64,000 nucleotides of DNA. Source: Lachnospira eligens (GTDB lineage: Bacteria; Bacillota; Clostridia; Lachnospirales; Lachnospiraceae). The notes below the pieces were generated by a model. It did not search any database and was not told the DNA's origin. It worked only from the letters and a program-made list of their open reading frames with translations. Position 1 is the stretch's first letter, and every line of letters begins with the position of its first letter. The DNA is taken from contig NZ_WKRD01000011.1 of NCBI RefSeq assembly GCF_009680455.1, forward strand, positions 1-64,000, written 5' to 3'. A program made the translations under genes and the position numbers. Of this stretch, positions 3,621 through 22,519 are shown in pieces.

Positions 3621-6008
3621 TCAGTCTGCCATTTTGATCCGTTCCACCAACGAATTTCTGCATTGAATTTTTAGACAGATAGCAGAAATTATAATAGGTG
3701 TTATTATTAAGCAGACACCGTAAATCAGTAATGGAATAAAAGGAAAAGCATATTGAAAATAAGTTAATCCATTCGCAGACAATATCCGTACTAACAAATA
3801 CCCTATCAAGGTTCCTACCACAACCGTAATAATCAAGCATGGAATAATCAGTAAGACACTTTCATGCAGCAGCATTTTCTTTAGCTGCTTTTTTGTCATA
3901 CCGATAGATTCCAATATTCCAAATTCTTTTCTCCTTGTACTGATACGACTAATCAAGGTGTTTGTCAGATTAAAAATGCTAAACATAATGACAAAGGCAG
4001 ATACTCCATAAACTTGTACGCTGGTATTATGAATCGTATTTGCCGAAGATGCTTTTACCTCTTGTAAGGTTTCCATTACCAAATCAGGGTGTCGGGACAG
4101 TATATTATTTAATTTGCTTTCTACTGATTTACCCACTTTTTCATATTCAGGTACGGACAAAGTTAAGGAAGCTGTTAAATCCATATCGCCCCACAACTTT
4201 TCTATGGTTTCTTTGGGGAGATAAAAGCCCTCATTCATACTTTTTTCGGAAGTACCGGCAATCAAAATATCTATGCTGTGTTCAGCCCCATCAAACCATC
4301 GTAATGTCACTTTTTCTCCTATTGACGGGCAAGCATGATAGACTTCTTTCTGTACACTTGTTCCTAATATAACCATAGCGTCTTGTTTCACCAATGTTTC
4401 GTATGTCCAATCAACAGGAAGCGTTTTCAAAATTTCTTCCTGATTATCAGGCGTAATCGGAATAATGGGAATTTCTAATTGTTCATTGTGATACTCAATA
4501 ATGGCTGCGGTTCTCTCCGTAGCATAAATCTCTTTAACTTCCGGGATTTGTTGCAATTCTTCCATGAGTTCCTGTGAAAAAGGCGTATCAACTTGATACT
4601 CCGAAATACCATACGGTTTCGGATTGACTAATGTATTGTGGTTAATCGTAATATAATATTCTCCATCTTCCAAATTCCCCATTCTTGCAAAGGAATCTGG
4701 ATTCCATGATGATATAAAAGTGGCTCCAACCATAAATAAAATCCCGCCGATTGCAAGCGAGGCAATCGTCAGATTGTGTTTTTTTCGATTCTGCTTTTCG
4801 CTCAATACGGCTAAAGAATACGGTGAGAGACGAATATGATTTTTCCTGTTCCGCACTCTACTTTCTTTTAGTTCTGGATTGTTTCCAACATATTTTGTTG
4901 CTTCAATAGGGGAAATATTTGAAGCTATTTGTGCGGGCTTGTATACGGAAATTTGTACGATGATAATGCCTAATATTATTGCGAAAATACTTGTGGCTAT
5001 GGCATTGATAATCGTTATTCCATTCGGCTCTAACAAATATGCAAATATGATACCTACTGTAATACCGGCAGGTATTCCGAACAGGCAGAAACGATACCCC
5101 TCTTTACGAATCATCCGCTTAATTTGTTTTTCTGTCATGCCAATAGTTTTGAGCTGTCCAATCTGCGACACTTGATTTGATACCGAAAGGTAGAACACAC
5201 TGTATATGACAATTCCGCTTGAAAATGCAATAAAAAGAGTAGCTAAAAGAACACCTCCCATTCCTGATCCACTGATAAGTGAGGAACAGAATTTGCTATT
5301 AAAATAAAGCTGGTTCCTGCTTATGTCTTGGGATAAAGCCAGACGATATACTGTATTCTCAAAATCAATAAGTCCCATTTCCGTGGCACCATTTACACGA
5401 ATCAAGGCACTATATGGAATATCAGATAATAACACACCCTGTTCTGCATACGCTGGGGAGACATAAAAGTAAAATGTTCCTGTTTCCACATTATCAGTAA
5501 AACCAGTAATGATGAAATCCTCTGTTTTACTCCCTGCCGTTGGTAAAGTGATGGTATCTCCTATATTTAGCTGATACCCCAGTTCTAATTGCACATTTTT
5601 ATCAATTACAATTTCATTGTACTGTTCTGGACAGGTTCCACTGACTAATTCATAGGATTTTATAATTCCAAAACCAGTCGGCATATAAACCGCTTCAAAT
5701 TTGATCCCATCCATCAGAAAACTATCACTATGCTTATAGGGTACAATATCTTCAAGATCAGGTTCTTTTTTCAGAACTTCTATCTGTTCTGCTGTAAGCC
5801 CCCCGATGGTAGCTTGCTGCATTTGATTCAAAATCTTTTGTTCACTAATTTTGCTGCCTTGTTGGAATAAGGAGATTCCCACAATCAAACTAATTGCCAG
5901 CGCAATGGTCAAAACATTAAAAAAGCAAAAAATACGATTTGAAGATACATTGCGTTTTGCTAATTTCTTTACAATGGCGCTGGTATCGTTCTCAAAAGGC
6001 CATGTCAT
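3621..6008 (-). CDS. Second FtsX-family ABC permease
   Basis: A 795-residue permease with the same plan as the first: a TM near 33-53, a large extracytoplasmic part, FtsX segments near 250-380, a second half starting near 430, and three C-terminal segments. The frame is open to 6125, but the ATG at 6006-6008 has GGAGGTG upstream and starts MTWPFENDTSAI, matching its paralogue; the extra upstream residues are translated operator repeat. It has no ATPase gene of its own, so it probably shares the one at 2563-3228 or is an alternative permease. Its base composition looks clearly more A+T-rich than the flanking ATPase and kinase genes, suggesting a separate origin. Confidence 0.85.
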   Translation of the reverse strand: MTWPFENDTSAIVKKLAKRNVSSNRIFCFFNVLTIALAISLIVGISLFQQGSKISEQKILNQMQQATIGGLTAEQIEVLKKEPDLEDIVPYKHSDSFLMDGIKFEAVYMPTGFGIIKSYELVSGTCPEQYNEIVIDKNVQLELGYQLNIGDTITLPTAGSKTEDFIITGFTDNVETGTFYFYVSPAYAEQGVLLSDIPYSALIRVNGATEMGLIDFENTVYRLALSQDISRNQLYFNSKFCSSLISGSGMGGVLLATLFIAFSSGIVIYSVFYLSVSNQVSQIGQLKTIGMTEKQIKRMIRKEGYRFCLFGIPAGITVGIIFAYLLEPNGITIINAIATSIFAIILGIIIVQISVYKPAQIASNISPIEATKYVGNNPELKESRVRNRKNHIRLSPYSLAVLSEKQNRKKHNLTIASLAIGGILFMVGATFISSWNPDSFARMGNLEDGEYYITINHNTLVNPKPYGISEYQVDTPFSQELMEELQQIPEVKEIYATERTAAIIEYHNEQLEIPIIPITPDNQEEILKTLPVDWTYETLVKQDAMVILGTSVQKEVYHACPSIGEKVTLRWFDGAEHSIDILIAGTSEKSMNEGFYLPKETIEKLWGDMDLTASLTLSVPEYEKVGKSVESKLNNILSRHPDLVMETLQEVKASSANTIHNTSVQVYGVSAFVIMFSIFNLTNTLISRISTRRKEFGILESIGMTKKQLKKMLLHESVLLIIPCLIITVVVGTLIGYLLVRILSANGLTYFQYAFPFIPLLIYGVCLIITPIIISAICLKIQCRNSLVERIKMAD

Positions 6009-6028
6009 AGTTGTATCACCTCCATATT

Positions 6029-6131
6029 TGATAAGGGTATTGTAAACCCCAAATGTCCGCGAAATGTTACAGCGGCCAAAAAATTTCATTGAAAATCGGG
6101 GTGAAATGTTACAACGCTCGGACATTTCAAA
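6029..6131. repeat. About 103-bp direct repeat, copy 2, with promoter and operator boxes
   Basis: Near-perfect copy of 3518-3620. Boxes ATGTCCGCGAAATGTTACAG (6053-6072) and TGTTACAACGCTCGGACAT (6107-6125) face each other. On the minus strand a TACAAT element follows the inner box and leads into the ribosome binding site of the second permease gene. Confidence 0.8.
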
Positions 6132-6170
6132 AAAATTTACGGCGGGCAGCCGGAAATGGCCGTCCGCCGC
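6130..6170 (-). terminator. Terminator after the histidine kinase
   Basis: On the minus strand CGGCGGACGGCC and CCGGCTGCCCGCCG pair imperfectly around ATTT and are followed by a T-rich stretch. It lies directly after the kinase stop codon and separates the regulator pair from the permease transcript. Confidence 0.7.
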
Positions 6171-6173
6171 GTT

Positions 6174-7205
6174 CTATTTTGTAGGCAGCATAATGGAAAA
6201 TTCCGAACCCTTGCCCGGCTCCGAAACCACTTTGATATAGCCGCCCTGCCGCGTTACGATCTCGCGGGCCAGATACAGGCCAATGCCAACGCCCTGCTGT
6301 TCGTGTACTTCTTCCTCACGATAAAAGCGCCGGAAGATAGCGGCCTGATTGCTTTCGGAAATGCCCTTGCCGGTGTCGGTTACTTTAATCTCCACATACA
6401 TTTCCCATAGCACCACCGACACAGCGATTTTTCCGCCCGCCGGGGTGTATTTCACCGCATTGTCCAGCAGGTTAAAGAGGGCTTCGGATGTCCACTTGCT
6501 GTCATGGGAAACGGTCAAATCCTCCGGGCAGTCCACGGACACAGCGATTTCCTTTTTCTCCGCTGCATACACGATCCCACTCATGGCCTGCGCCACAGTA
6601 TCAAAGAGGCGGCCCGGTTTCTTATCCAACTGGATCACGCCTGTTTCCAGACGGGAGGTTTTCACAAGGGCCTGAAAGAGAAAGTCCAGCTTATCCGTCT
6701 GGCTGCGGATTCCCCGGATAAAGTCGGTGCGCTCTGCCTCGGCCATAGGCTTTTCCAGCAGGGTGTCCGTCGCCATTTTCAGATTGCTTACCGGCGTTTT
6801 CACCTGATGGGAAATATCCGATACAAGGGTCTGTAACTCCTGCCGTTCCTCGTCCACCCGGCGGCGGTTCTCCTGCATGATCTGGTAGAGCCTTGCCAGA
6901 CGGTGCCCAATTCTGGCAAGCTGGGTTTCGCTGTCCTCTGGGCGCTGGGGCGCTTCATTCCCGGCGATCATGTGGTCTAAGGTCTGGCACAGGTCAGCGG
7001 TAAACTGCGACAGCCGCTTTCCAAACGCCTGCGTCAGTACGAAAATCCCCACAAGGGCACACAGCAGCAGCGCCCCGCCTGTCAGCAGCACCGCCGTCTG
7101 TTTTGTCACAAAAAACAGGACTATGGTGATCCCGGACATGGAGAGGACAAGCCCTATTGCCACCCGGCCAAACAGCCGCTTTACCGAGAGGTTTTGAACC
7201 TTCAT
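6174..7205 (-). CDS. Sensor histidine kinase (intramembrane-sensing type)
   Basis: A 343-residue kinase. Two adjacent membrane segments (about 12-33 and 38-58) have almost no extracellular loop, the layout of kinases that sense through a partner ABC transporter. The H-box SDISHQVKTPVSNLK near residue 130 carries the phospho-accepting His. The N box (LLDNAVKYTP), G1 (DTGKGIS) and G2 (GVGIGLYLA) boxes follow. The start MKVQNL at 7205 is chosen because it overlaps the regulator stop as ATGA; the longer open frame upstream is the regulator gene read out of frame. It presumably phosphorylates the response regulator next door and reports on the permeases at 170-6008. Confidence 0.93.
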   Translation of the reverse strand: MKVQNLSVKRLFGRVAIGLVLSMSGITIVLFFVTKQTAVLLTGGALLLCALVGIFVLTQAFGKRLSQFTADLCQTLDHMIAGNEAPQRPEDSETQLARIGHRLARLYQIMQENRRRVDEERQELQTLVSDISHQVKTPVSNLKMATDTLLEKPMAEAERTDFIRGIRSQTDKLDFLFQALVKTSRLETGVIQLDKKPGRLFDTVAQAMSGIVYAAEKKEIAVSVDCPEDLTVSHDSKWTSEALFNLLDNAVKYTPAGGKIAVSVVLWEMYVEIKVTDTGKGISESNQAAIFRRFYREEEVHEQQGVGIGLYLAREIVTRQGGYIKVVSEPGKGSEFSIMLPTK

Positions 7206-7894
7206 TTTGCCTCGCCTCCCGTCCATTGATAGCCCATGCCGTAAACAGTCTTGATGTAGGGTGCGCCGCCGTCGGATTCGATCTTGCTGCGAATCCGGCT
7301 GATGGAGGTTGTCAGGGTGTGTTCGTCTACAAACCTCTCGTCTATATCCCACAGCTTTTCCAAAAGCTGCCCACGGGTCAGCACTTGCCGGGGATTTTTA
7401 CGAAACAGGTTCAGCATTTTGTACTCCATCGGGGATAGGGTCAGGGGCTTGCCGTTTAGGGAAGCCGTCTGCTCCGAGAAGTCCAGAAACAGCCGTCCGT
7501 CATCGTAAATGTCCTTAGCCGGTTTGTGGTGTTCCAGCATGGCGAACATGGCTTTGATCTTCCGCTGCAAGGCCCCGATTACAAAGGGCTTTGTGATGTA
7601 GTCCACCGCGCCCACCTCATAGCCCCGTATCTGGTCGCTCTCCTGATCGTTGGCGGTCAGGAATATTACGATGGTGTCCGGGTGCTGGGGCTTTATCAGC
7701 TTGCACAGTTCAAAACCGTTCCCGTCCGGCAGGTTGATGTCCAGCAGCACTAAATCAAATTCCCGCTGGCGGATGGCTTCGGCTGCGGTTCTGGCATTTA
7801 GGGCAGAAGTCACGCCGTAGCCGTCTGCGGTCAGGTTATAGTCTAACATCTTATTCAAAAAACTGTCGTCCTCGACAATTAAAATCTGCTCCAT
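7202..7894 (-). CDS. OmpR/PhoB-family response regulator
   Basis: A 230-residue DNA-binding regulator. The receiver domain occupies residues 1-115, with the acidic pair in IVEDD, phospho-Asp in LVLLDINLPDGNGF and the conserved Lys in YITKPF. A winged-helix output domain covers about 130-228 (LSPMEYKMLNLF, TSISRIRSKIE, TVYGMGYQW). The start MEQILIVEDD at 7894 has GGAAG upstream; residues before it in the open frame are not family-like. It overlaps the kinase gene by four bases. The TGTCCGAGAATTGTTACA box 40 bases upstream, also found before both permease transcripts, suggests autoregulation. Confidence 0.94.
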   Translation of the reverse strand: MEQILIVEDDSFLNKMLDYNLTADGYGVTSALNARTAAEAIRQREFDLVLLDINLPDGNGFELCKLIKPQHPDTIVIFLTANDQESDQIRGYEVGAVDYITKPFVIGALQRKIKAMFAMLEHHKPAKDIYDDGRLFLDFSEQTASLNGKPLTLSPMEYKMLNLFRKNPRQVLTRGQLLEKLWDIDERFVDEHTLTTSISRIRSKIESDGGAPYIKTVYGMGYQWTGGEAK

Positions 7895-8457: not shown

Positions 8458-9798
8458 TTTTATATTCCACTATGTAACTATTAATTCCCTGCTTGCTGGA
8501 AGAACATCTTATATCCGCAGTTCATTTACATCCCACTATGTAACTATTAATTCTGCTGCCTTCTGTGCCATATCAAGAAGTTTATCCTCATTTACATCCC
8601 ACTATGTAACTATTAATTCCGATCCTGTTCGATTTCGTATTTCGCCATTAACTCCATTTACATCCCACTATGTAACTATTAATTCAACTGTTGGGGTAGA
8701 GAAAGTAAATACTCTTATGTTATTTACATTCCACTATGTAACTATTAATTCCTCCCCCACACGCGCGAACCTACTGTCCCATTTAAATTTACATCCCACT
8801 ATGTAACTATTAATTCAATTCCCTGGCAGCTCTATCCTGTAATGACATTATGATTTACATCCCACTATGTAACTATTAATTCAGAGGAGAACCAGGACAA
8901 ATTATTTACTTCAAAAATATTTACATCCCACTATGTAACTATTAATTCATAGATTCAATACACATAAAAAGATGACCACCAAAATTTACATCCCACTATG
9001 TAACTATTAATTCGAATTTCTTTTCGATCAGGTCATTCGCGATAGAAAATTTACATCCCACTATGTAACTATTAATTCCACATTAGCGTCTGCTGCCTGC
9101 TGCTCGTTTGCTGTATTTACATCCCACTATGTAACTATTAATTCCTATGCAACTAAAAATGATATTAATAATCTACAAATATTTACATCCCACTATGTAA
9201 CTATTAATTCCTATTTCGACAGAAAATTAAATAAACCTTTTAATTTATTTACATCCCACTATGTAACTATTAATTCTTGCCGCATACCTAATGCCCCAGC
9301 TTTCATATTCATTTACATCCCACTATGTAACTATTAATTCTATATGACAATGACTCTTCACTGTAATCTTTTTCACATTTACATCCCACTATGTAACTAT
9401 TAATTCCGTTATACCATGAGATTTTATCCTGCTTTGAGATAATTTACATCCCACTATGTAACTATTAATTCCATCGGATGCCGTTTTTCCGTCTGCTTTC
9501 TTTGTGATTTACATCCCACTATGTAACTATTAATTCGTATAACAGCTTTTGTTCTCCACCTTTTGTAAGGGTATTTACATCCCACTATGTAACTATTAAT
9601 TCAAAAACAGCAAACAATCATTGAACAGTCGAAAATCGATTTACATCCCACTATGTAACTATTAATTCGGAAGTTACGTATTAAAGTAAGGAGAGAAAGA
9701 AAATTTACATCCCACTATGTAACTATTAATTCCCAAAGTGCAAAAATTGTTTACAATCATAAGCCAGTATTTACATCCCACTATGTAACTATTAATTC
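8458..9798 (-). CRISPR. CRISPR array 1, 21 repeats and 20 spacers, type I-B
   Basis: A 30-bp repeat beginning ATTTACATCCCACTATGTAA on the plus strand and ending CTATTAATTC occurs 21 times with spacers of 34-36 bp. The repeat at 8458-8487 differs at three positions and the one at 8722 by one base (ATT for ATC); most others are identical. The degenerate end is the left, so the leader-proximal end is the right and crRNAs are read on the minus strand with 5' handle ATGTAAAT. The last repeat ends at 9798 and is followed by leader 1. There are no adjacent cas genes; it presumably uses the operon at 12788-21008. Confidence 0.98.
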
Positions 9799-11475: not shown

Positions 11476-12621
11476 ATTTACATTCCACTATGTATCTATT
11501 AATTTTAAATACTCCGGATGATTAAGCACGCTGTCCTGCCCATTTACATCCCACTATGTATCTATTAATTCTACACGCTCAAGGCTGCCTTCTGGTATCA
11601 TGTCGTAATTTACATCCCACTATGTATCTATTAATTCAATGGAATCCCTGTCCTTGACCATCTTGTCAACGAAATTTACATCCCACTATGTATCTATTAA
11701 TTCGCTAGAGCCGCCCTTATTAGTGCCGTTTGGACTTCATTTACATCCCACTATGTATCTATTAATTCCGGGCTTATATTGTGCTTTTTCGGGGTTGTCT
11801 AAAATTTACATCCCACTATGTATCTATTAATTCGTAAAATGACAGTAAATGAAAAGATATTTGAAATAAATTTACATCCCACTATGTATCTATTAATTCT
11901 CCGTCCAAGCTGTTGTCTAAAGGTTCAACAATAATATTTACATCCCACTATGTATCTATTAATTCTCATACGGAGTCTCCTGTGCTGCCTTGTCATCTGT
12001 ATTTACATCCCACTATGTATCTATTAATTCAGACAACAAAAGCCGCATAACAACACCGCTACTGTATTTACATCCCACTATGTATCTATTAATTCCATTT
12101 TTCTGCCTGTGCTTGTCCTTTGTTATGTACTATTTACATCCCACTATGTATCTATTAATTCTATTAGCAGTAGCAAAACCTTACGACATGATACCGGAAT
12201 TTACATCCCACTATGTATCTATTAATTCCCTTGTCTCCCTGCTTTGCAGATACCAAATATCTTTAATTTACATCCCACTATGTATCTATTAATTCCGTCA
12301 AGCGTATCTTCTCCGTCGTCAAGAATTACATTTACATCCCACTATGTATCTATTAATTCATCTTTGAAGATAATGACTTTTTGTCCTGGTCTTCATTTAC
12401 ATCCCACTATGTATCTATTAATTCGTACAGATATAAATATACAAAATGAGTTAATAGAAATTTACATCCCACTATGTATCTATTAATTCGTAGCGGAGAA
12501 AGAGAAAGAAGCCGCGGAGACATAGATTTACATCCCACTATGTATCTATTAATTCTTCTTTTTCCTGTTTAACTTTTTTAATTTTATTATAATTTACATC
12601 CCACTATGTATCTATTAATTC
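11476..12621 (-). CRISPR. CRISPR array 2, 18 repeats and 17 spacers, type I-B
   Basis: The 30-bp repeat begins ATTTACATCCCACTATGTAT on the plus strand and ends CTATTAATTC. Every copy has T at repeat position 20 where every array 1 repeat has A. The leftmost copy (11476-11505) is degenerate (ATT for ATC and a terminal T), so the leader is at the right, next to cas2. Transcription is on the minus strand with handle ATGTAAAT. Two spacers, 11572-11607 and 12162-12198, overlap in target sequence on opposite strands. Confidence 0.98.
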
Positions 12622-12787: not shown

Positions 12788-13066
12788 TCAAATTATGAAA
12801 CTCGTCAAATCATCTTCCTTACCCCAAAATTCTTTATCCAGCCATTTTTCACTCCTGCTTTTGAATAAAATGACTGAATCCAGATTAGTATTAACATGTG
12901 GTTTCAACTCACCCCGTAATTTTTCTAATTGAACTGTTGATATTTCTCCTTCAAAGACAGAATTCTGAATATGCGTCAGATACTTTTTGCAGATTTTGAA
13001 AATATGTGACCATCTCTTTTGCCCATTTTCATCTTTACTAACATCATATACAAGTACAATATACAT
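12788..13066 (-). CDS. cas2: CRISPR-associated endonuclease Cas2
   Basis: A 92-residue adaptation protein that works with Cas1 to insert spacers. It starts MYIVLVYDVSKDENGQKRW, where the Asp of the first beta strand is the family hallmark, and has the ferredoxin-like pattern through LDSVILFK. It is the last gene of the cas operon; the ATG begins four bases after the cas1 stop, indicating coupled translation, and its 3' end runs into the leader of array 2. Confidence 0.96.
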   Translation of the reverse strand: MYIVLVYDVSKDENGQKRWSHIFKICKKYLTHIQNSVFEGEISTVQLEKLRGELKPHVNTNLDSVILFKSRSEKWLDKEFWGKEDDLTSFII

Positions 13067-13069
13067 ATA

Positions 13070-14062
13070 CTACCACCATATTCTAAACCCTTCATATTCT
13101 TTCTCACCTATTAAATGCTTTATAAGCTTATATGCTTCTAACCTCATCAGATACTGGTAAGACACCTGTCTTCCCAATTCTTTATGCATTATCGTTTTCT
13201 TCATACGATTCTCAAATTCTGAAACAATAAGTTTAGAAGCTTCTTTCTTAAGATGAAGATAGTTAAGTTCTTTTGTAAAGCTGTCTTCTGTTATCTGTCT
13301 TCTGTTTAACAACGAAAATATCAATCTGTCTCCAATCAATGGTTTAAATACTTCCGATATATCCAGACATAATGAATATCTTCTTACTCCCGGTTCATGC
13401 AGATAACTTATCGTTGGATTCAGTTGTGTATGATATATCTCGCTTAATAAACGCGTATACACTAGGGAATTAACAAATGAAATCAATGAATTAATCATAT
13501 TGTCTGGCGGATGCATAACACGCTTATCAAACTGTATATCCTGATTAACAATCACATTCCACGCTGCATAATATCTCTTTCTTATATTTCCTTCAATTCC
13601 CATCAATTCTTCTATTGTCCTTGCTTTACAAAGAGTTCCACGAAGTGAATCTATATCCCTCATATATTCCGAGACATCTTTTTCTCGGCCATTATAATAT
13701 CTGAGATTTCTATATATATTATCTGCTGCCGCCTGTATAAATTTTATGGCAATATCCAATCTCTTATCATAATCCACATAATGTTCAACCTGCTTAACCA
13801 GCAACTGACCTGCTGGATTTCCATCCTTTGGATAAAAACTTCCTGAATAATAATTATAATAATTAAAGAAATGTATAGGTATTCCATACTGCGATATATA
13901 ATTAAGAAATGTCGTATTAAACGACATTTCAGACATTACATATATATCTGAAATTCTTTCAATTGGAATATCTCTTTTTTCTCCGTCATAAGCAGTGAAC
14001 TGTAATGTATTATCCTTGCGTTTTAAATCCCCATTATTATACACATAAAAACTCTGTTTCAA
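13070..14062 (-). CDS. cas1: CRISPR-associated integrase Cas1
   Basis: A 330-residue protein, normal for type I-B Cas1. The N-terminal beta domain (MKQSFYVYNNGDLKRKDNTL) leads into the alpha-helical catalytic domain. The metal-binding His lies in YLHEPGVRRYSLCLDISEVF, and the Asp in the same stretch and an upstream Glu in LLSEI fit the Glu-His-Asp triad. The start is TTG at 14060-14062, with AAGGTGATG upstream. Twenty bases separate it from cas4. Confidence 0.96.
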   Translation of the reverse strand: MKQSFYVYNNGDLKRKDNTLQFTAYDGEKRDIPIERISDIYVMSEMSFNTTFLNYISQYGIPIHFFNYYNYYSGSFYPKDGNPAGQLLVKQVEHYVDYDKRLDIAIKFIQAAADNIYRNLRYYNGREKDVSEYMRDIDSLRGTLCKARTIEELMGIEGNIRKRYYAAWNVIVNQDIQFDKRVMHPPDNMINSLISFVNSLVYTRLLSEIYHTQLNPTISYLHEPGVRRYSLCLDISEVFKPLIGDRLIFSLLNRRQITEDSFTKELNYLHLKKEASKLIVSEFENRMKKTIMHKELGRQVSYQYLMRLEAYKLIKHLIGEKEYEGFRIWW

Positions 14063-14082
14063 TTATCATCACCTTCTTCTGT

Positions 14083-14577
14083 CTATATAAAACACAAATC
14101 ATAATATGCACATTTTTTGCATATCTTTTTCTCTTCCAGCTTCGGCGGATACTCCTGATTCTTCACACTAATGATTTCTTTTATAATATCGTCTAGTTTT
14201 TTACAGTCCTCATCCGACAATTCTACATCAACATTTTTCTTCAGCAGCGGATAGTCTATCACGCCATGAAGTCCATCCACATTTCTTTTTTTCAGGTAAT
14301 ATAGATAATACTTAACCTGCCATATTCCAGCCTCTTCTATACTCTTGCTCTTCTTTATCTCATGAAGTTCATTTTTTTCATGAATAAAATCAATATTAAT
14401 AATGCCATCTATTTCAATATGCTTATCATCCCGCTTGTAACTGTTCTCATCCAGCAATTTTCCAAGCTGCACATTTTCATTCTCATCTTCCATATTAATC
14501 TGATGACAAAAATACCATAACTTTCTTGAGCACACGAAATAATAATAAATCATCACTCCTGTTATTCTTTCTTCCAT
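14083..14577 (-). CDS. cas4: CRISPR-associated exonuclease Cas4
   Basis: A 164-residue RecB-like nuclease that trims prespacers and helps choose PAM-correct ends. It contains the N-terminal Cys pair in VCSRKLWYFCHQ, a nuclease core with D in GIINIDFI and ExxK in LHEIKKSK, the QVKYYLYYLK motif, and C-terminal CKKCAYYDLC, giving the four Cys of the iron-sulphur cluster. GGAGC precedes the ATG. It lies between cas3 and cas1, the usual I-B order. Confidence 0.94.
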   Translation of the reverse strand: MEERITGVMIYYYFVCSRKLWYFCHQINMEDENENVQLGKLLDENSYKRDDKHIEIDGIINIDFIHEKNELHEIKKSKSIEEAGIWQVKYYLYYLKKRNVDGLHGVIDYPLLKKNVDVELSDEDCKKLDDIIKEIISVKNQEYPPKLEEKKICKKCAYYDLCFI

Positions 14578-14601: not shown

Positions 14602-16872
14602 TCAGACAAATATATCTCTTTCATATTCGCCTAAAACTAACCCTGCTCCTGTTAAATCCACAACATTGAAATCGTACATAATACATGATCTATGAATATC
14701 ACTACCATATATTACATCACGATCTATCCCATCCGGATATTTCTTATAAGCATATAACTGTATAGAAATCACATATGAATCCAGCTTTGTCCTTGCGTCA
14801 TTCTTCTCTCTTCTATCAGCATCAGAGCTATGCATTATATCAATACACTCGCTTATAACTTCACGATTATCTTCATATACGTCATCAGGAATAATTTTAA
14901 TACTGTTAATATCCCTGAATTTTTCATCAGCTTCACTTTTACTGTATTCTGCTGGTGTCAGTTCTTTAAACATTGCAAGAAACTTCTCTATATCCCTGTA
15001 ATAATCCGTATCCTTTATCTCATCTGTACAGTATACTTTATTGATATATTCAGATTTGTCTGATTCTGTCATAACTCTGCCAATATATTTTTCTAAACAC
15101 TCAACAGAACGAGTGTATATCTCACGATTATATATAGCCCGGCTGACTCCTACTCCATTTGCATTAATGTATATATGTATATTGGCCTTATCCGGAATAT
15201 ACCGACCTTTCCTGTTGCATCTTCCCATTCTCTGCATCAAACTATCAGCCGTACTCATCTCTGTATACAACACATCAAAATCAATATCCAGACTTGCCTC
15301 AACTAACTGTGTTGTTACCCATATTCCCGTTTCATTTTCACTATCTGAGAACTTTATAATCTCATTTTCCAGCATTCTCTTATGTTCTTTGGTAAATCGT
15401 GCATGCAGAAGATGAACATTATCTGTTTTTTCGGTCAGGCTTTTATATATCTGCTGTGCCTTTTTTACCGTATTGCATATTACAAGAACCTTTTTATCAT
15501 AGCTATCTTCTACAACCCTATCTATTTCTATATCGCCATCTTTTATATCTATCCAATGTCTTTTAAGATTCGATAATGCAGAAAAATCCCTGTATTCATA
15601 CTGATTATCAGCCATCAATCCATATTTATGCATAAGACTTCCCAATACCGGTGGAAATGTTGCTGTTATTATGGCAAATTTCCCACCCATATCAGTCACT
15701 ATCTTTAATCCATATATTATTGCTGCTATTACTGATGGACTATATGCCTGTATCTCATCAATAATTATCTTAGAATATTTCAATGTAGCTGCAAATATTT
15801 CTGTTCCCAACGCCTTATACACAAACTTAAACAACTGATCTACTGTACATATAGTAAGCGGCTGAGATAATAATTTTGCTTTCTGATATTTTTCATATCC
15901 ATCAGAATCTGTTTCGTTTACCTGGTCTTCAAAATAATAATGCATACTGTCTGAATGAAGTATTGCCACGTCCTTATATTCATACCTGTCTCTTATTCTT
16001 TCATATATTGCATTCGATGATACTACATATGGCAATGTATAAAATCCCTTTTCACCATTAAGCCATAATAATGATGCCTCTGTTTTTCCCATTCCAGTTG
16101 GTGCAACCACAACAAGATTCTTATCACATTTATCTCTCATATACTCCTGAACTGGTCTTAATCCATGCTGTTGAAAAATGTTTTCTATAGATGTTTTAAG
16201 ATATTTTGTTGTGAAAGCAGAACAATCCTCTGCTTCTGTATAACCAGCACTCACTGTATAATCAAATTTATTCAGCAGACCTTTGATTAGCACAAATTCC
16301 TGCCATTCATGCAAATATTCATTCTTATCATAACAGCTCATGATGTATTTGCTTCCCGATATGCTGCCTGTATTTCTGAACAGAAGATATTTATTTATAC
16401 CCGAAACCTTAGCTTTGATACTTTCATCATTTAAAAAATCCCTTATATATGGGTTATAGTATTTCTTACAGAAATTTAATATTATATCATCACCGTTTTT
16501 ATCTTCTCTGACATGATGATGATATACTGCTGTATAGAAAGCTTTATAATCATCATTATCTGCTTCTGGTATATGATTCTTAAATTCTTCAGGCGATGTC
16601 GTCATTGCACTTAAAAATCCGTGTGGTATCTCCTGAGTCTTTATTACATCCAGCTCTTTATTTATCTTAGATTGAAAAACAATGTTTGCCTTTCCCAGGT
16701 CATGCACTCTGCATGCTTCTATTATTATTGCTTTTTCTTTTTCTGTAAAATAATGTCCGAATTTTTCAAAAAAATCCTGTGCACATTTAACTGTATCATC
16801 CAGATGCTGTTTTAATGTCACCTGTTCTTCTTTAGAACCCCCATTCGGAACTGACTTTGCAAAATATTCCAT
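14602..16872 (-). CDS. cas3: CRISPR-associated helicase-nuclease Cas3 (HD + DEAD-box)
   Basis: A 756-residue effector that unwinds and degrades DNA marked by Cascade. The N-terminal HD nuclease has LKQHLDDT near 22 and VHDLGKANIVFQSK near 57. The helicase has Walker A APTGMGKTE near 257, motif II IIIDEIQAYSP, motif III ITATFPP and motif VI QRMGRCNRKGR. The ATG at 16872 has GGAGGGG five bases upstream. The 50-base gap to cas5 holds a degenerate CRISPR repeat in transcript sense (16887-16915), which is unusual. Confidence 0.97.
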   Translation of the reverse strand: MEYFAKSVPNGGSKEEQVTLKQHLDDTVKCAQDFFEKFGHYFTEKEKAIIIEACRVHDLGKANIVFQSKINKELDVIKTQEIPHGFLSAMTTSPEEFKNHIPEADNDDYKAFYTAVYHHHVREDKNGDDIILNFCKKYYNPYIRDFLNDESIKAKVSGINKYLLFRNTGSISGSKYIMSCYDKNEYLHEWQEFVLIKGLLNKFDYTVSAGYTEAEDCSAFTTKYLKTSIENIFQQHGLRPVQEYMRDKCDKNLVVVAPTGMGKTEASLLWLNGEKGFYTLPYVVSSNAIYERIRDRYEYKDVAILHSDSMHYYFEDQVNETDSDGYEKYQKAKLLSQPLTICTVDQLFKFVYKALGTEIFAATLKYSKIIIDEIQAYSPSVIAAIIYGLKIVTDMGGKFAIITATFPPVLGSLMHKYGLMADNQYEYRDFSALSNLKRHWIDIKDGDIEIDRVVEDSYDKKVLVICNTVKKAQQIYKSLTEKTDNVHLLHARFTKEHKRMLENEIIKFSDSENETGIWVTTQLVEASLDIDFDVLYTEMSTADSLMQRMGRCNRKGRYIPDKANIHIYINANGVGVSRAIYNREIYTRSVECLEKYIGRVMTESDKSEYINKVYCTDEIKDTDYYRDIEKFLAMFKELTPAEYSKSEADEKFRDINSIKIIPDDVYEDNREVISECIDIMHSSDADRREKNDARTKLDSYVISIQLYAYKKYPDGIDRDVIYGSDIHRSCIMYDFNVVDLTGAGLVLGEYERDIFV

Positions 16873-16886
16873 CTACCCCTCCATAC

Positions 16887-16915
16887 ATTTAAATCCACAA
16901 TGTAACTATTAATAA
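16887..16915 (-). repeat. Degenerate CRISPR repeat inside the cas operon
   Basis: ATTTAAATCC then ACAATGTAACTATTAATA on the plus strand matches the 30-bp array repeat with one deletion and a few substitutions; the central TGTAACTATTAAT is exact, and the A variant matches array 1. In mRNA sense it gives TTAATAGTTACAT, GTGG and an ATTTAAAT handle, ending just before the cas3 ribosome binding site. A Cas6 cleavage site separating cas3 from the upstream message is the natural hypothesis. Confidence 0.75.
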
Positions 16916-16922
16916 AATCTCA

Positions 16923-18501
<1,579 letters not shown>

Positions 18502-20262
18502 CTAAATAACCTCCTCATTCTTCTTATTCTGTCTGCAACCTTTTAATCCCAAAACAAATGCATATCCATATTCTTCAAATAACTCCTGATTTTTCTGGAT
18601 ATATACAAACTCTCTTGGAATAACTAATTTATCAGCCTGTCCCACTTCAGCTGGCACCTTACAGGTACAATATAATCTCATTACAATATCCAGAAATTTT
18701 CCTGTATTTCTCGTAGATAATGCATTAAGAAGCTGATATATTGTTCCTTTGATACATTCATCATCCTTTGCCCCTTTTGAAGACAATATGGCAGTTCTTA
18801 AAGCAAAACCACTATCCATTACTGTTATACTTCCCATTTCTATAACCTTACCTCCATTTCCTTGCAAATCCTTATCTTTCTTAACAAGTGCACTATACAA
18901 CATTACAACATATATCCAATAAGCAGTTACTATCTGTCCCGCATTATCAGAATCAAGATTATTCTTTAGCACTTTCTTTAGAAGCAATTCCTGACTTCTA
19001 TGTTTCAGAATATTCATAACTACATTTTCGTATATATTAAGATAATCTGCTCCAATTCTTGTGTAAGGATATTCTCCTAAATACTCTAAAGCTTTTCTTA
19101 CCTTTTCATCATTAAATGTCTGAAGTGCTTCATTACTTATTACAGAAAAGATATATTTATCCTTCTCATCTGTTCCCTTTAAAATAACCTGAATATTGTT
19201 AAGTTGTTCAACTTTACAATCCATCAACTGCTTCAACATTCTGGCAAACCATTGTGTATATCGCTCAGCTTCTTTTTTCTCTGCCTCTGTCACAATCTTT
19301 CCACTCCTGCTATTAGAAGCCAGTAACTGATTAATTGATGAATTAGTATTCATAAATGCAAAGCGCTGTCCTAAAAGTGTGAATCCCAGCGGACTGGCAG
19401 CATATACAAATGCGCATGCAGGACACAAAAAGGCATCTACTTTACAATTCCAGAATGCAGACTTTTTTCTCGCAAGATCATCTGCCATATCCTTCATAAA
19501 AGCAATAGAAACACGTTCCTTATTTCCCATTGGTCTTCCACAGTCTATACACATATCCTTATCTTTATCATGATTTGTCCTGATATATTCTTTAAATGGT
19601 TTTGTAAAATCCTGTTCAAACAATATACGCATGTCCTTCTTTGCATTAGCTCTTAGCAGAAAACATTTACCATCCCAGAAACGGTTAATATAGTTATATA
19701 TGACGCTCTTCATTACAAATGTTTCTTTACACTTTGGCTGCATTATAAAGTTCTTGATACCTTCAAGCCTCTGTTTTAGTTCTTGTGATGTTGATTTCGC
19801 ATTTAATTTATTTTGCTGAAGATTCACATATATCTCAGACCCATCAACTTCGTTTCTTATATTTTCAAATCCAGCCTTATAACTATTGGACAAAAGCTTA
19901 TCATTTATAAACTTGATATCTTCCTTATCTTCTTTAACCAGCTTGTCCGGATTCCATTGTTCATTATCAATTTTGCATATAATCTTGTTAATTCTGTCTA
20001 ATATTCCTTTATATACTGTAAAATCTCCATAATAGTTAACACAGGCATCAAAATACATTCCAGTCCAGTCACACTGCTGCACGAAATCCTCGTCAAGCCA
20101 TAATCCCTGCTCATACAGTTCAAGCCCATCTACCGGTCTGTTCTGCATTTTTATGCCATAATCCTTTCCGCTCTCTGCATCTGACATATCCAGCATATAG
20201 TTAAGACCTACTATCCCCGTATTTTTCAGGAAATCTCCCATAGTTACCAGATATTTACCCAC
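18502..20262 (-). CDS. cas8: Cascade large subunit, CXXC-CXXC (Cst1/Cas8) type
   Basis: A 586-residue large subunit that recognises PAM and recruits Cas3. A zinc-ribbon-like pair, CIDCGRPMGNKE near 240 and FLCPACAFVYAASPLGFT near 277, defines the CXXC-CXXC family that accompanies Cst2 in Tneap-type I-B systems. The start is GTG at 20260-20262, with AGGAGGG eight bases upstream; the later ATG would lack this site. Exact assignment to Cas8a or Cas8b sub-family would need a profile search. Confidence 0.88.
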   Translation of the reverse strand: MGKYLVTMGDFLKNTGIVGLNYMLDMSDAESGKDYGIKMQNRPVDGLELYEQGLWLDEDFVQQCDWTGMYFDACVNYYGDFTVYKGILDRINKIICKIDNEQWNPDKLVKEDKEDIKFINDKLLSNSYKAGFENIRNEVDGSEIYVNLQQNKLNAKSTSQELKQRLEGIKNFIMQPKCKETFVMKSVIYNYINRFWDGKCFLLRANAKKDMRILFEQDFTKPFKEYIRTNHDKDKDMCIDCGRPMGNKERVSIAFMKDMADDLARKKSAFWNCKVDAFLCPACAFVYAASPLGFTLLGQRFAFMNTNSSINQLLASNSRSGKIVTEAEKKEAERYTQWFARMLKQLMDCKVEQLNNIQVILKGTDEKDKYIFSVISNEALQTFNDEKVRKALEYLGEYPYTRIGADYLNIYENVVMNILKHRSQELLLKKVLKNNLDSDNAGQIVTAYWIYVVMLYSALVKKDKDLQGNGGKVIEMGSITVMDSGFALRTAILSSKGAKDDECIKGTIYQLLNALSTRNTGKFLDIVMRLYCTCKVPAEVGQADKLVIPREFVYIQKNQELFEEYGYAFVLGLKGCRQNKKNEEVI

Positions 20263-20285
20263 ATTCTGTCCCTCCTTTCCTAAAA

Positions 20286-21008
20286 TTATAGTAATATTTC
20301 GAACTTACCGTGACCTTCTGATCTTCTGGCACCCAGCCCTGCCTGATAAAGAATATTAAGCAGCTCGCAATTACCGCTAATCTTATATATTCCAAGGTTA
20401 GCATCAACCTTTCTTCCAAAGCAGTTAACTACTACTTTTCTTGCTTTGACAGGTTCTATTGATAATCCTTCTGTATCAACCCCGATTTCCATTTTCTGAA
20501 TAAAAATCTCTACATTTTCACATAATGCCTTTGAAAATCCTTCATCTGCATATGTATAATAAATGTCTTTGTTAGTCACACTGTCGTGCCGTCTTACAAT
20601 CAATGGGCTCTGCATCTTTACAATAATTTCATCATCAACAATATCTTTACGATTGTTTGACCTTATTGAAATCAATTTCATAGAATTGCCACTGACAGGA
20701 TACTGCTTGTATCTCATAAGCTGAAAAGCATTAAACCATTCTATAATCTGTCCCATATCAGCATCTGTAAAAAAAACTTTAAATCTGTTGTCCCTAAGAA
20801 ATATAGTGTCACCTTTAAATACCGCACCTGGCAGATATGTACTGAATGTAAATGATTTAATAATTGAATGCTCCTTATTATATAATCGCTCAAACATATC
20901 TTCCGAATAATTCCTGCTTGCTGCTTTTAAGAAACTAACCATCAATCTCTCATATTCCAGCGGTAACTGTGGCTTTTCAAGTTGAAATTCTAAAGATAGC
21001 TGTATCAT
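20286..21008 (-). CDS. cas6: crRNA-processing endoribonuclease Cas6
   Basis: A 240-residue ferredoxin-like RNase that cuts repeats to leave the ATGTAAAT handle. The glycine-rich C-terminal loop GLGARRSEGHGKFEILL is the family signature, and TFSTYLPG and RNYSEDMF lie in the N-terminal half. It is the first gene of the operon, 40 bases after a clear promoter, with AAGGTGATAC before the ATG. Confidence 0.95.
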   Translation of the reverse strand: MIQLSLEFQLEKPQLPLEYERLMVSFLKAASRNYSEDMFERLYNKEHSIIKSFTFSTYLPGAVFKGDTIFLRDNRFKVFFTDADMGQIIEWFNAFQLMRYKQYPVSGNSMKLISIRSNNRKDIVDDEIIVKMQSPLIVRRHDSVTNKDIYYTYADEGFSKALCENVEIFIQKMEIGVDTEGLSIEPVKARKVVVNCFGRKVDANLGIYKISGNCELLNILYQAGLGARRSEGHGKFEILL

Positions 21009-21049
21009 TGTATCACCTTCTTTTGCTTAATTATGTAGTTCATATCTGG

Positions 21050-21078
21050 ATATTACTACTTTAGATTTAAGATGTCAA
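21050..21078 (-). promoter_or_regulatory. Promoter of the cas operon
   Basis: On the minus strand TTGACA (21078-21073), 17 bases, TAATAT (21055-21050): a near-consensus SigA promoter 42 bases before cas6. Directly upstream and touching the -35 lies AATTGATAATT with CCA in front of it (21096-21078), the sequence matched by the spacer of the degenerate mini-CRISPR at 21144-21225. Confidence 0.85.
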
Positions 21079-21143
21079 TATAAATTATCAATTTGGATTA
21101 AAAAACTTTGTTTGATTTTTAATGTCACTTATTATAATATACA

Positions 21144-21225
21144 TATATAATTTTTACATTTTGGGATGTAAATAATTGATAATTAATATAATCAACTTTT
21201 AATAGCTACATTTTGGAATTCTCCC
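21144..21225 (+). ncRNA. Degenerate mini-CRISPR (CreR/CreA-like) facing the cas operon
   Basis: Positions 21144-21173 match the crRNA-sense array repeat at 23 of 30 bases, including TTACAT and the whole GGGATGTAAAT end, so the 8-nt handle is identical to real crRNAs. A 22-bp pseudo-spacer starts AATTGATAATTAATAT. Positions 21196-21225 match the repeat 5' part again (TTAATAG, TACAT). A TATAAT at 21133-21138 would start transcription at the first repeat. The spacer matches the cas promoter at 15 of its first 16 positions; the one mismatch is at position 12, a base that type I crRNAs flip out. Known precedent: CreA and CreR RNAs that guide Cascade to repress a promoter. Confidence 0.8.
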
Positions 21226-21243
21226 ATCCCCCAAACCTTTCCA

Positions 21244-21272
21244 TTGTTATTTCCAATCCCATATATTATAAT
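21244..21272 (+). promoter_or_regulatory. Promoter of the SDF-family symporter gene
   Basis: TTGTTA, 17 bases, TATAAT, with the -10 35 bases before the start codon. It is divergent from the cas promoter. Confidence 0.7.
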
Positions 21273-21307
21273 TTTTCTTAACCAAACAAATGAAGGAGAT
21301 TTATTTA

Positions 21308-22519
21308 ATGAAGAAAAATAGTATCTTTCGCAGCCTGCCGTTTAAATTGCTGGTGGGCGTTATTGCCGGCGTCATGGTGGGACTACTGTTAAGTTCAACT
21401 GATGGCAATTCATTTTCACGCGCCATTTTGAATATCGTTGTAACTCTGAAATATATTCTCAATCAGATAATTAATTTCTGCATACCTCTGATAATCATTG
21501 CATTTATTGCGCCTTCGATTACTCAGATGGGTAAAAATGCATCAAAGCTTCTTCTGATTGCAGTTACAATCGCATATACATCATCAGTTGGTGCTGCATT
21601 TTTCTCTACAGCATCCGGATATCTTTTGATACCACATTTGTCAATATCCTCTACTGCTGATGGATTGAAAGAGCTTCCGGCTGCGGTTTTCGAATTATCA
21701 ATCCCACAGATAATGCCTGTTATGAGCGCACTTGTGTTCTCAATTATGATTGGACTTGCTGCCGCTTGGACAAAAGCAGAATTGATTTCAAATATTCTTG
21801 AAGAATTCCAGAAAATCGTGCTTGCGATAGTTTCAAGAATCATGATACCGATTCTTCCATTTTTCATCGGACTTACTTTCTGCGGACTCTCATACGAAGG
21901 TTCAATAACAAAGCAGGTTCCTGTGTTCCTGAAAATCATAATTATTGTATTAATCGGACATTACATTTGGATGACTCTGCTTTACACAATCGCAGGATTG
22001 TATTCTAAGAAGAACCCGATTGAAGTAATCAGACATTACGGTCCTGCATACCTTACATCAATTGGAACAATGTCATCTGCTGCCACACTCGCAGTTGCAC
22101 TCCAGTGTGCCGGAAAATCAAAGGTTTTGAGAAAGGACATGGTCTCTTTTGGAATTCCTTTGTTTGCAAATATACATTTGTGCGGCTCTGTGCTGACAGA
22201 GGTATTTTTCTGCATGACTGTATCAAAGATTTTGTATGGCACTATTCCATCAGCCGGAACTATGATTCTGTTCTGCGTGCTTCTCGGAATATTTGCAATC
22301 GGCGCACCTGGCGTACCTGGCGGAACAGTTATGGCTTCGCTCGGACTTATTACCGGCGTGCTTGGATTTAACGACACTGGAACTGCCCTTATGCTTACAA
22401 TATTTGCACTTCAGGACAGCTTCGGAACAGCCTGCAATGTAACAGGCGACGGTGCGCTCACACTTATCCTGACTGGATATGCAGAGCGCCACGGCATCAA
22501 AGAAGGCGCTGACAATTAA
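21308..22519 (+). CDS. Dicarboxylate/amino acid:cation symporter (SDF/DAACS family)
   Basis: A 403-residue secondary transporter of the glutamate/aspartate/dicarboxylate family. About eight hydrophobic segments are spread from residue 12 on. Family landmarks are the serine-rich SIGTMSSAATL near 245 (first re-entrant hairpin), IPLFANIHLCGS in TM7 and the glycine-rich second hairpin IGAPGVPGGTVMASLGL, followed by TGDGALTLILTGY in TM8. The frame opens at 21290, but GAAGGAG lies at the first ATG and the true start is 21308. It reads away from the cas operon and appears to be core chromosome. Confidence 0.93.
   Translation: MKKNSIFRSLPFKLLVGVIAGVMVGLLLSSTDGNSFSRAILNIVVTLKYILNQIINFCIPLIIIAFIAPSITQMGKNASKLLLIAVTIAYTSSVGAAFFSTASGYLLIPHLSISSTADGLKELPAAVFELSIPQIMPVMSALVFSIMIGLAAAWTKAELISNILEEFQKIVLAIVSRIMIPILPFFIGLTFCGLSYEGSITKQVPVFLKIIIIVLIGHYIWMTLLYTIAGLYSKKNPIEVIRHYGPAYLTSIGTMSSAATLAVALQCAGKSKVLRKDMVSFGIPLFANIHLCGSVLTEVFFCMTVSKILYGTIPSAGTMILFCVLLGIFAIGAPGVPGGTVMASLGLITGVLGFNDTGTALMLTIFALQDSFGTACNVTGDGALTLILTGYAERHGIKEGADN

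Follow-up and report, generated by a model that had tools for sequence, protein, structure and literature searches.

Two degenerate CRISPR repeats around a short spacer lie upstream of cas6 in Lachnospira eligens, and the spacer matches the promoter of the cas operon itself. What would such a mini-CRISPR do there: guide Cascade back to its own genes, silence a toxin, or nothing at all? The question was addressed in a 64,000-nucleotide stretch of DNA (contig NZ_WKRD01000011.1, positions 1 to 64,000; called the window below) and in the corresponding regions of related genomes. The minus strand of the window carries a complete type I-B operon (21008-12788), with the gene order cas6-cas8-cas7-cas5-cas3-cas4-cas1-cas2 according to NCBIfam models, and two CRISPR arrays:

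20286..21008, minus strand: cas6 (NCBIfam TIGR01877)
18502..20262, minus strand: cas8-like large subunit, assigned by position, with no NCBIfam hit
17632..18501, minus strand: cas7 (Cst2/DevR; TIGR02585)
16923..17672, minus strand: cas5 (Cas5t-like; TIGR02593, above cut-off)
14602..16872, minus strand: cas3 (HD and helicase; TIGR01587/TIGR01596)
12788..14577, minus strand: cas4, cas1 and cas2 (TIGR00372, TIGR03641, TIGR01573)
11476..12621, minus strand: CRISPR array B, with repeat GAATTAATAGATACATAGTGGGATGTAAAT in 18 copies by the pattern used
8458..9798, minus strand: CRISPR array A, with repeat GAATTAATAGTTACATAGTGGGATGTAAAT in 20 copies by the pattern used and one decayed copy at the end

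Gene order and arrays together place the system in type I-B, with cas8 assigned by position only and cas5 scoring 93.9 bits against the I-B model TIGR01895, just under its cut-off of 96.7. A homologue of the cas8-like gene was found in the genomes of all seven relatives identified first (7/7). The arrays, located downstream of the operon, have 30-nt repeats that are one base apart (GTTAC vs GATAC), and a single cas1-cas2 set was seen beside the two.

The mini-CRISPR, its presumed target and the two promoters predicted for the region were located as follows:

21122..21151, plus strand: predicted creR promoter, ATGTCA (21122-21127), 18 nt, TATAAT (21146-21151), the latter inside PsiR1
21144..21173, plus strand: PsiR1, degenerate first repeat (23.5 bits for hairpin and handle)
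21166-21173, plus strand: 8-nt 5' handle of PsiR1, ATGTAAAT, perfect
21174..21195, plus strand: PsiS, 22-nt pseudo-spacer, AATTGATAATTAATATAATCAA
21196..21225, plus strand: PsiR2, second degenerate repeat (16.0 bits)
21094..21096, minus strand: PAM CCA directly 5' of the target, from a scan in which no PAM was imposed
21078..21093, minus strand: site in the cas6 promoter matched by PsiS (its target), 15/16 identical, mismatch at position 12
21050..21078, minus strand: predicted cas operon promoter, TTGACA-17-TAATAT

Direct reading reproduced the coordinates and counts given in an earlier note on this DNA for the first diverged repeat, which is identical to the array repeat at 23 of 30 positions in the crRNA sense and has a perfect handle; the 22-nt pseudo-spacer and the second diverged repeat at 21196-21225 were likewise present as that note had described. 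The hairpin of PsiR1 (TTTACAT..ATGTAAA) is intact, and a -10-like TATAAT lies within its 5' half. PsiR2 retains the 22-nt 3'-handle half (21196-21217; 15 of these first 22 nt are the same as in the repeat) and has lost its final 8 nt, the handle. At 22 nt, PsiS is short compared with the spacers of the window's arrays (34-37 nt). No Rfam family matched in 16800-21400 at E values up to 1. The predicted creR RNA folded no better than shuffled sequences (z 0.24), and the same holds for the half repeat in the cas5-cas3 gap treated below (z 0.07), which limits any structural claim to the short repeat stem.

The match between pseudo-spacer and promoter was recovered as the earlier note had claimed it, at 15/16 on the minus strand from 21093 to 21078, with its sole mismatch at position 12, CCA adjoining it and the -35 element abutted. 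The predicted cas promoter consists of TTGACA (21078-21073) and TAATAT (21055-21050) at a spacing of 17 bp, and the final base of the target coincides with the opening T of the -35. An equally good PAM-flanked match arose in 0/4000 first-order-Markov resamplings of the region, and in 3/4000 (0.00075) when no PAM was required. Within the 64-kb window, both the guide seed (positions 1-5 and 7-11) and guide matches of at least 14/16 occurred only in the cas6 promoter, besides the spacer itself; no further guide targets were found there. Five spacers of the window's arrays match human-gut phage records. Three of the five (A3, A5 and A6) have CCT or CCA 5' of the protospacer, indicating that CCA is a natural PAM of the window's system; TCA precedes the protospacer of B15, and ACA or ACT that of B6, which is mismatched at position 1. 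Four of these spacers (A3, A5, A6 and B6) match one human-gut phage contig (MT835666.1), and two of the four (A5 and B6) also match a second (MT839975.1), a pattern that reads as repeated encounters with one kind of phage.

On one point the earlier note probably needs correcting. It had placed the -10 element of the mini-CRISPR at a TATAAT at 21133, whereas the TATAAT at 21146-21151 is the likelier candidate, judged by an offset that recurs among the related loci described below. The latter motif ends 22 nt before the end of the handle, and in 10 of 15 loci a TATAAT or TATACT ends 22-27 nt upstream of the handle's last base, in each of these ten either inside PsiR1 or spanning its 5' end. In the remaining five the best -10 prediction is 33-49 nt upstream of that base. 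Promoter-like hits are not enriched in this AT-rich stretch (5 versus a shuffle mean of 4.0), so that single promoter calls rest on conservation rather than on the motif; the same scan found no terminator-like site. The -10 of creR is thus likely to lie at or within PsiR1, and the decay of the 5' half of that repeat looks like its conversion into a promoter.

Related loci were collected with Cas6. A first scan of genome contigs gave seven loci, and further ones came from samples that overlap: two at family level (397 and 310 genomes), one at order level (392 genomes) and smaller ones by genus. A locus was taken as testable if its Cas6 was 52-64% identical (first scan) or gave an E value below 1e-100 against the alignment, and if at least 377 bp of upstream sequence was available. 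Sixteen loci including the window, with Cas6 proteins 49-68% identical, qualified; five entries (L009, L032, L033, L044 and L047) are duplicates of others in the set, and one genome (G077; L013/L043), with 94 bp upstream only, was left out of the creR count. The mini-CRISPR unit was found in 15 of the 16 (the window, L001-L008, L010, L011, L012, L014, L015 and L049); L005 comes from Butyribacter intestini TF01-11, a cultured relative. The wider sampling added only two new loci, one positive (L046/L049) and one negative (L045/L048); in the latter (G763), which has complete cas genes, no creR unit was found in 4.5 kb upstream. Sixteen more distant Cas6 loci (L016-L031) yielded no element with this handle pattern, and their best CC-flanked match was a low-complexity 13/17 in L021. 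These were searched with the window-type handle instead of their own repeats, and L026 (111 bp upstream) and L031 (where the Cas6 match began at residue 123) were hardly testable, so that absence from this group is not proven.

In all 15 positive loci the order is PsiR2, PsiS, PsiR1, CCA or CCT, target and cas6, and in each the guide is matched by a CCA- or CCT-flanked site in the promoter of the same locus, although the guides differ between loci and only L003 and L006 share one. Relatives that keep both elements and lose the match, which would have spoken against a functional pairing, were looked for and none was seen: the match is kept in 15/16, and the search of the sixteenth locus, L048, yielded no mini-CRISPR. 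For the co-variation, resampling and mismatch analyses, targets were sought only in CC-flanked places; unrestricted scans nevertheless ranked the same CCA/CCT site first in 15/15, in two of which it shares this rank, in L002 with an AAA site and in L012 with the reverse reading of the same pair, and the third base of the PAM, never imposed, is A or T in 15/15. The PAM is therefore a result and not merely an assumption. Match values for random handles of about 9 to 13 form the background, and the higher ones (L027, 15; L006, 14) lack a CC PAM. Hairpin and handle of PsiR1 are kept in 15/15 (16.1-25.1 bits). PsiR2 scores 10.6-18.9 bits over the 15 loci, those of L004, L010, L014 and L015 (10.6-13.7 bits) falling within the range of stray hits; its 22-nt half, which corresponds to the crRNA 3' tail, is more or less kept, and its handle half is decayed, in L002 only partly. 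Guides are 21-34 nt long, 12 of the 15 at 21-24 nt and the others at 28, 29 and 34 nt. By the predicted promoters, the -35 starts 0-26 nt from the start of the target in 15/15, the cas promoter prediction being poor in L002 and L011; in L015 the target spans the entire -35.

Two relatives show unusual arrangements. In L039/L011 (G356; about positions 345-650 of L039), creR lies about 340 bp from its promoter target, the match being kept over this longer distance, and an inverted repeat, CTCCCACACA...TGTGTGGGAG, lies between creR and target. In L037 (G398), at 4862-7882, a cas3 match covers only residues 10-124 and is followed directly by a 38-copy array, and no cas4, cas1 or cas2 match was found in the 14 kb examined. 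Its genome nevertheless retains the pairing of creR with the promoter (as L008), and L037 is possibly a Cascade-only locus used for regulation.

The position of the target bears on the first alternative, a CreTA-type addiction pair, in which the guide RNA would be an antitoxin silencing a toxin RNA or small protein and loss of Cascade would be lethal. The guide is indeed creA-like, with a seed at 1-5 and 7-11 and a PAM; the architecture is that of creA in the part of the published account available (PMC8501985), which likewise places the creTA of H. hubeiense just upstream of cas; and a 12-codon open reading frame with ATA codons is readable in the cas6 leader of the window. That frame, however, has no clear ribosome site by eye, and the targeted promoter directly heads cas6 instead of a toxin gene. 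In four relatives (L015, L003, L006 and L007) the predicted -10 lies 22, 24, 26 and 31 nt from the cas6 ATG, which leaves little room for a toxin. The earlier statement that no toxin-like gene lies between guide and operon holds to this extent, that cas6 is the first gene and that the leaders of four relatives are short, with the 12-codon frame in the window's own leader. We consider an addiction pair very improbable.

The related loci also allowed guides and promoters to be compared as pairs. When each guide was scored against every promoter in 14 loci (L049 came later), the own-pair sum was 205, compared with a maximum of 185 in 200,000 re-pairings, and guides matched their own promoters at a mean of 14.6/16 positions and those of other loci at 8.4/16. 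Near relatives show paired changes: between the window and L012, both sides changed at positions 4, 10 and 13, the mismatch at 12 being kept in both; between L001 and L008, at 5, 7 and 8, position 6 being the sole one altered on one side; and between L004 and L005, at 8, the one-sided changes being confined to 6 and 12. The co-variation of spacer and promoter among relatives, proposed in the earlier note as a check, is thus found both in the overall sum and in paired changes.

Mismatches are placed just as selectively. Type I effectors bind the guide such that Cas7 flips out every sixth base, leaving positions 6 and 12 unread. Among the 20 mismatches in positions 1-16 of the 15 loci, eight fall at 6 and five at 12, that is 13/20 compared with an expected 2.5 (binomial p about 6e-8), or 12/18 without L006, which shares the spacer of L003. 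L049, found after the rule had been set, fits it, its only mismatches in positions 1-18 being at 6 and 18. As the loci are related, the permutation and binomial figures are descriptive; the near pairs nevertheless show separate paired changes. Both seed blocks (1-5 and 7-11) are perfect in 11 of 15 loci including the window, and the other four have mismatches at 1 (L002, whose match is unremarkable without the PAM, p 0.12), at 11 (L003 and L006) or at 2 and 11 (L007). The sequences, the PAM, the co-variation and the mismatch periodicity are direct observations, and the clustering at 6 and 12 is the footprint to be expected from Cas7 flipping out every sixth base.

These data also bear on the two remaining alternatives. 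A decayed CRISPR array relic of no present function would account for degenerate repeats and a single short spacer, but would keep neither a PAM-flanked match through two-sided changes nor mismatches gathered at 6 and 12, and this explanation is scarcely credible. Equally implausible is an inverted operator pair for a DNA-binding protein unrelated to Cascade: PsiS and target do form an inverted repeat in the DNA, about 80 bp apart (21078-21093 and 21174-21189), but the sites of one protein would share a motif where these vary by locus, CCA/CCT stands on the same side in 15/15, the other copy follows a crRNA-like handle, and the mismatches gather at 6 and 12. Relic, operator pair and addiction pair were accordingly rejected on the co-variation, the mismatch periodicity and the presence of cas6 directly behind the targeted promoter.

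We conclude that the mini-CRISPR very probably encodes a crRNA-like RNA of the CreR kind, predicted to guide the I-B Cascade to the promoter of its own operon and so to repress cas. The preference of the earlier note for CreR-like autorepression over CreTA is supported by the layout and match in 15/16 loci and by a target promoter that heads cas6. In the accessible accounts, CreR RNAs (Liu et al. 2023, Cell Host Microbe) resemble crRNAs, act as repressors of cas promoters and respond to the levels of crRNAs and anti-CRISPRs; they are reported from types I-B, I-E and V-A (PMC12737573, PMC13131331, PMC12948488). As far as these descriptions go, they share with the window's unit a crRNA-like RNA, partial complementarity to the cas promoter and no toxin. 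The loci studied here have the corresponding features: a crRNA-like gene with degenerate repeats beside cas (15/16 testable loci), PAM-flanked partial complementarity to the cognate cas operon promoter, and no toxin coupling. CreR has already been reported for type I-B, and by their sequence features the window and its relatives match as further cases, for which the evolutionary evidence appears unusually strong. Compared with review descriptions only, the -10 inside PsiR1 and a lone Cas6-like site between cas5 and cas3 set them apart.

Other natural guides are similar in part, as far as the published excerpts describe them. CreA of the haloarchaeal I-B CreTA pairs (PMC8501985, PMC9458426) shares two diverged repeats, handles, a PAM, the seed and free positions 6 and 12; its diverged repeats still yield 8-nt 5' and 22-nt 3' handles cut by Cas6, and pairing at 1-5 and 7-11 is needed whereas 6 and 12 are not (PMC8501985). 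CreA, however, silences a toxin where the window's guide has a cas promoter as its target, and its PAM is TTC in place of CCA/CCT. Tracr-L of Streptococcus pyogenes II-A (PMC8616872) is also a natural guide to its own cas promoter, with a short match and no cutting, but involves Cas9 and an extended tracrRNA and no mini-CRISPR. DevTRS of Myxococcus xanthus I-C (PMC8616872) shares Cascade-like proteins, a DevR-family Cas7 and a proposed negative autoregulation of cas, but has no known target-matching spacer.

From these features we infer transcription, processing, binding, repression and feedback of creR in the following way. RNA polymerase would start in or beside PsiR1, and Cas6 would cut after nucleotide 22 of both PsiR1 and PsiR2, giving an RNA with an 8-nt handle, a 22-nt guide and a 22-nt tail. 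Cascade loaded with this RNA would recognise CCA, pair at guide positions 1-11 and 13-16 (6 being unread) and sit against the -35 of the cas6 promoter; Cas6, Cas7, Cas5 and Cas3 are present for such an effector, and Cas8 by position. With a short guide and pairing that ends near 16-21 nt, recruitment of Cas3 is not expected, and the complex would block instead of cut. A precedent is the type I-B system of P. thermoglucosidasius, in which, in the portions of the report available, complementarity of up to 26 nt represses without cleaving and long guides cleave (PMC10551041); a good PAM need not, then, mean self-cutting. Short guides in that system also led to primed adaptation against the genome (PMC10551041), a cost that the autorepression reading must assume to be avoided here. 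Array crRNAs would compete with the creR RNA for Cascade, so that many crRNAs, or an anti-CRISPR, would lift the repression.

A further repeat-derived element was found inside the operon:

16894..16915, minus strand: lone half repeat resembling a Cas6 site, TTATTAATAGTTACATTGTGGA, in the cas5-cas3 gap of the cas mRNA (18.9 bits)

It is the top score on either strand of the 8.7 kb scanned, with the expected cut after 16894. No second repeat was seen beside it in the window, so by appearance it is not another CreR. When 15 operons were scanned with nucleotides 7-22 of the repeat model, a half repeat of at least 15 bits, a line set after the scores were known, was found in the cas sense in ten (the window, L004, L005, L007, L037-L040, L043 and L048); L003, L006, L041, L042 and L049 scored lower. 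In those ten and in L041 (12.4 bits), the half repeat outscores all same-sized cas-sense stretches elsewhere in the operon, a comparison that leaves out 40 bp beside the cas5-cas3 gap. L048, in which the half repeat is present though creR was not found upstream, reaches 17.5 bits elsewhere, so that single hits of 15-17 bits are no proof, and position and recurrence carry the case. The consensus, TAATAGnnACATnTTGGA, extends to repeat nucleotide 22, where Cas6 should cut if the usual 8-nt handle applies. Only L007 has the whole 8-nt handle; parts of it remain in the window, L004 and L005. A model ending at nucleotide 22 contributes to the sharpness of this edge, but it does not account for the missing handle. 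The cas5-cas3 gap of L007 (14032-14115) contains two repeat-like hits 66 nt apart, of 15.0 and then 14.3 bits, the former with a complete handle (ATGTAAAG); they may form a further mini-CRISPR that lies within the operon and is co-transcribed with it.

The simplest reading of the half repeat is a predicted Cas6 site at which the mRNA would be split, cas3-cas4-cas1-cas2 being separated from the part for Cascade, which suggests a second feedback at the level of the mRNA. No Cas6 site between cas5 and cas3 is described in the literature that we found, including the accessible parts of PMC10013973 and PMC12817955; this silence is weak evidence of novelty. Tentatively, and as a proposal whose chances we put a little below even, decayed repeats may thus supply two Cas6-dependent feedback loops. 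A CreR RNA from a promoter inside PsiR1 would silence the cas promoter; and at the half repeat, kept up to the cut site without the handle, Cas6 would cut the mRNA between cas5 and cas3, with the result that Cascade and cas3-cas4-cas1-cas2 are set separately and Cas6 remains bound to the 3' end newly formed on the Cascade mRNA.

The fifteen guide-target pairs, with two-sided changes across the match and one-sided ones at 6 and 12, amount to a natural mutagenesis set. Repression by Cascade of its own genes would explain the low cost of carrying a type I system, and also a rise in cas expression when anti-CRISPRs or many crRNAs drain Cascade. If the half repeat is cut, a post-transcriptional loop would separate expression of the interference complex from that of the nuclease and adaptation genes; and if the two-loop reading is true, each product of Cas6 cutting would act back on the operon that encodes the enzyme.
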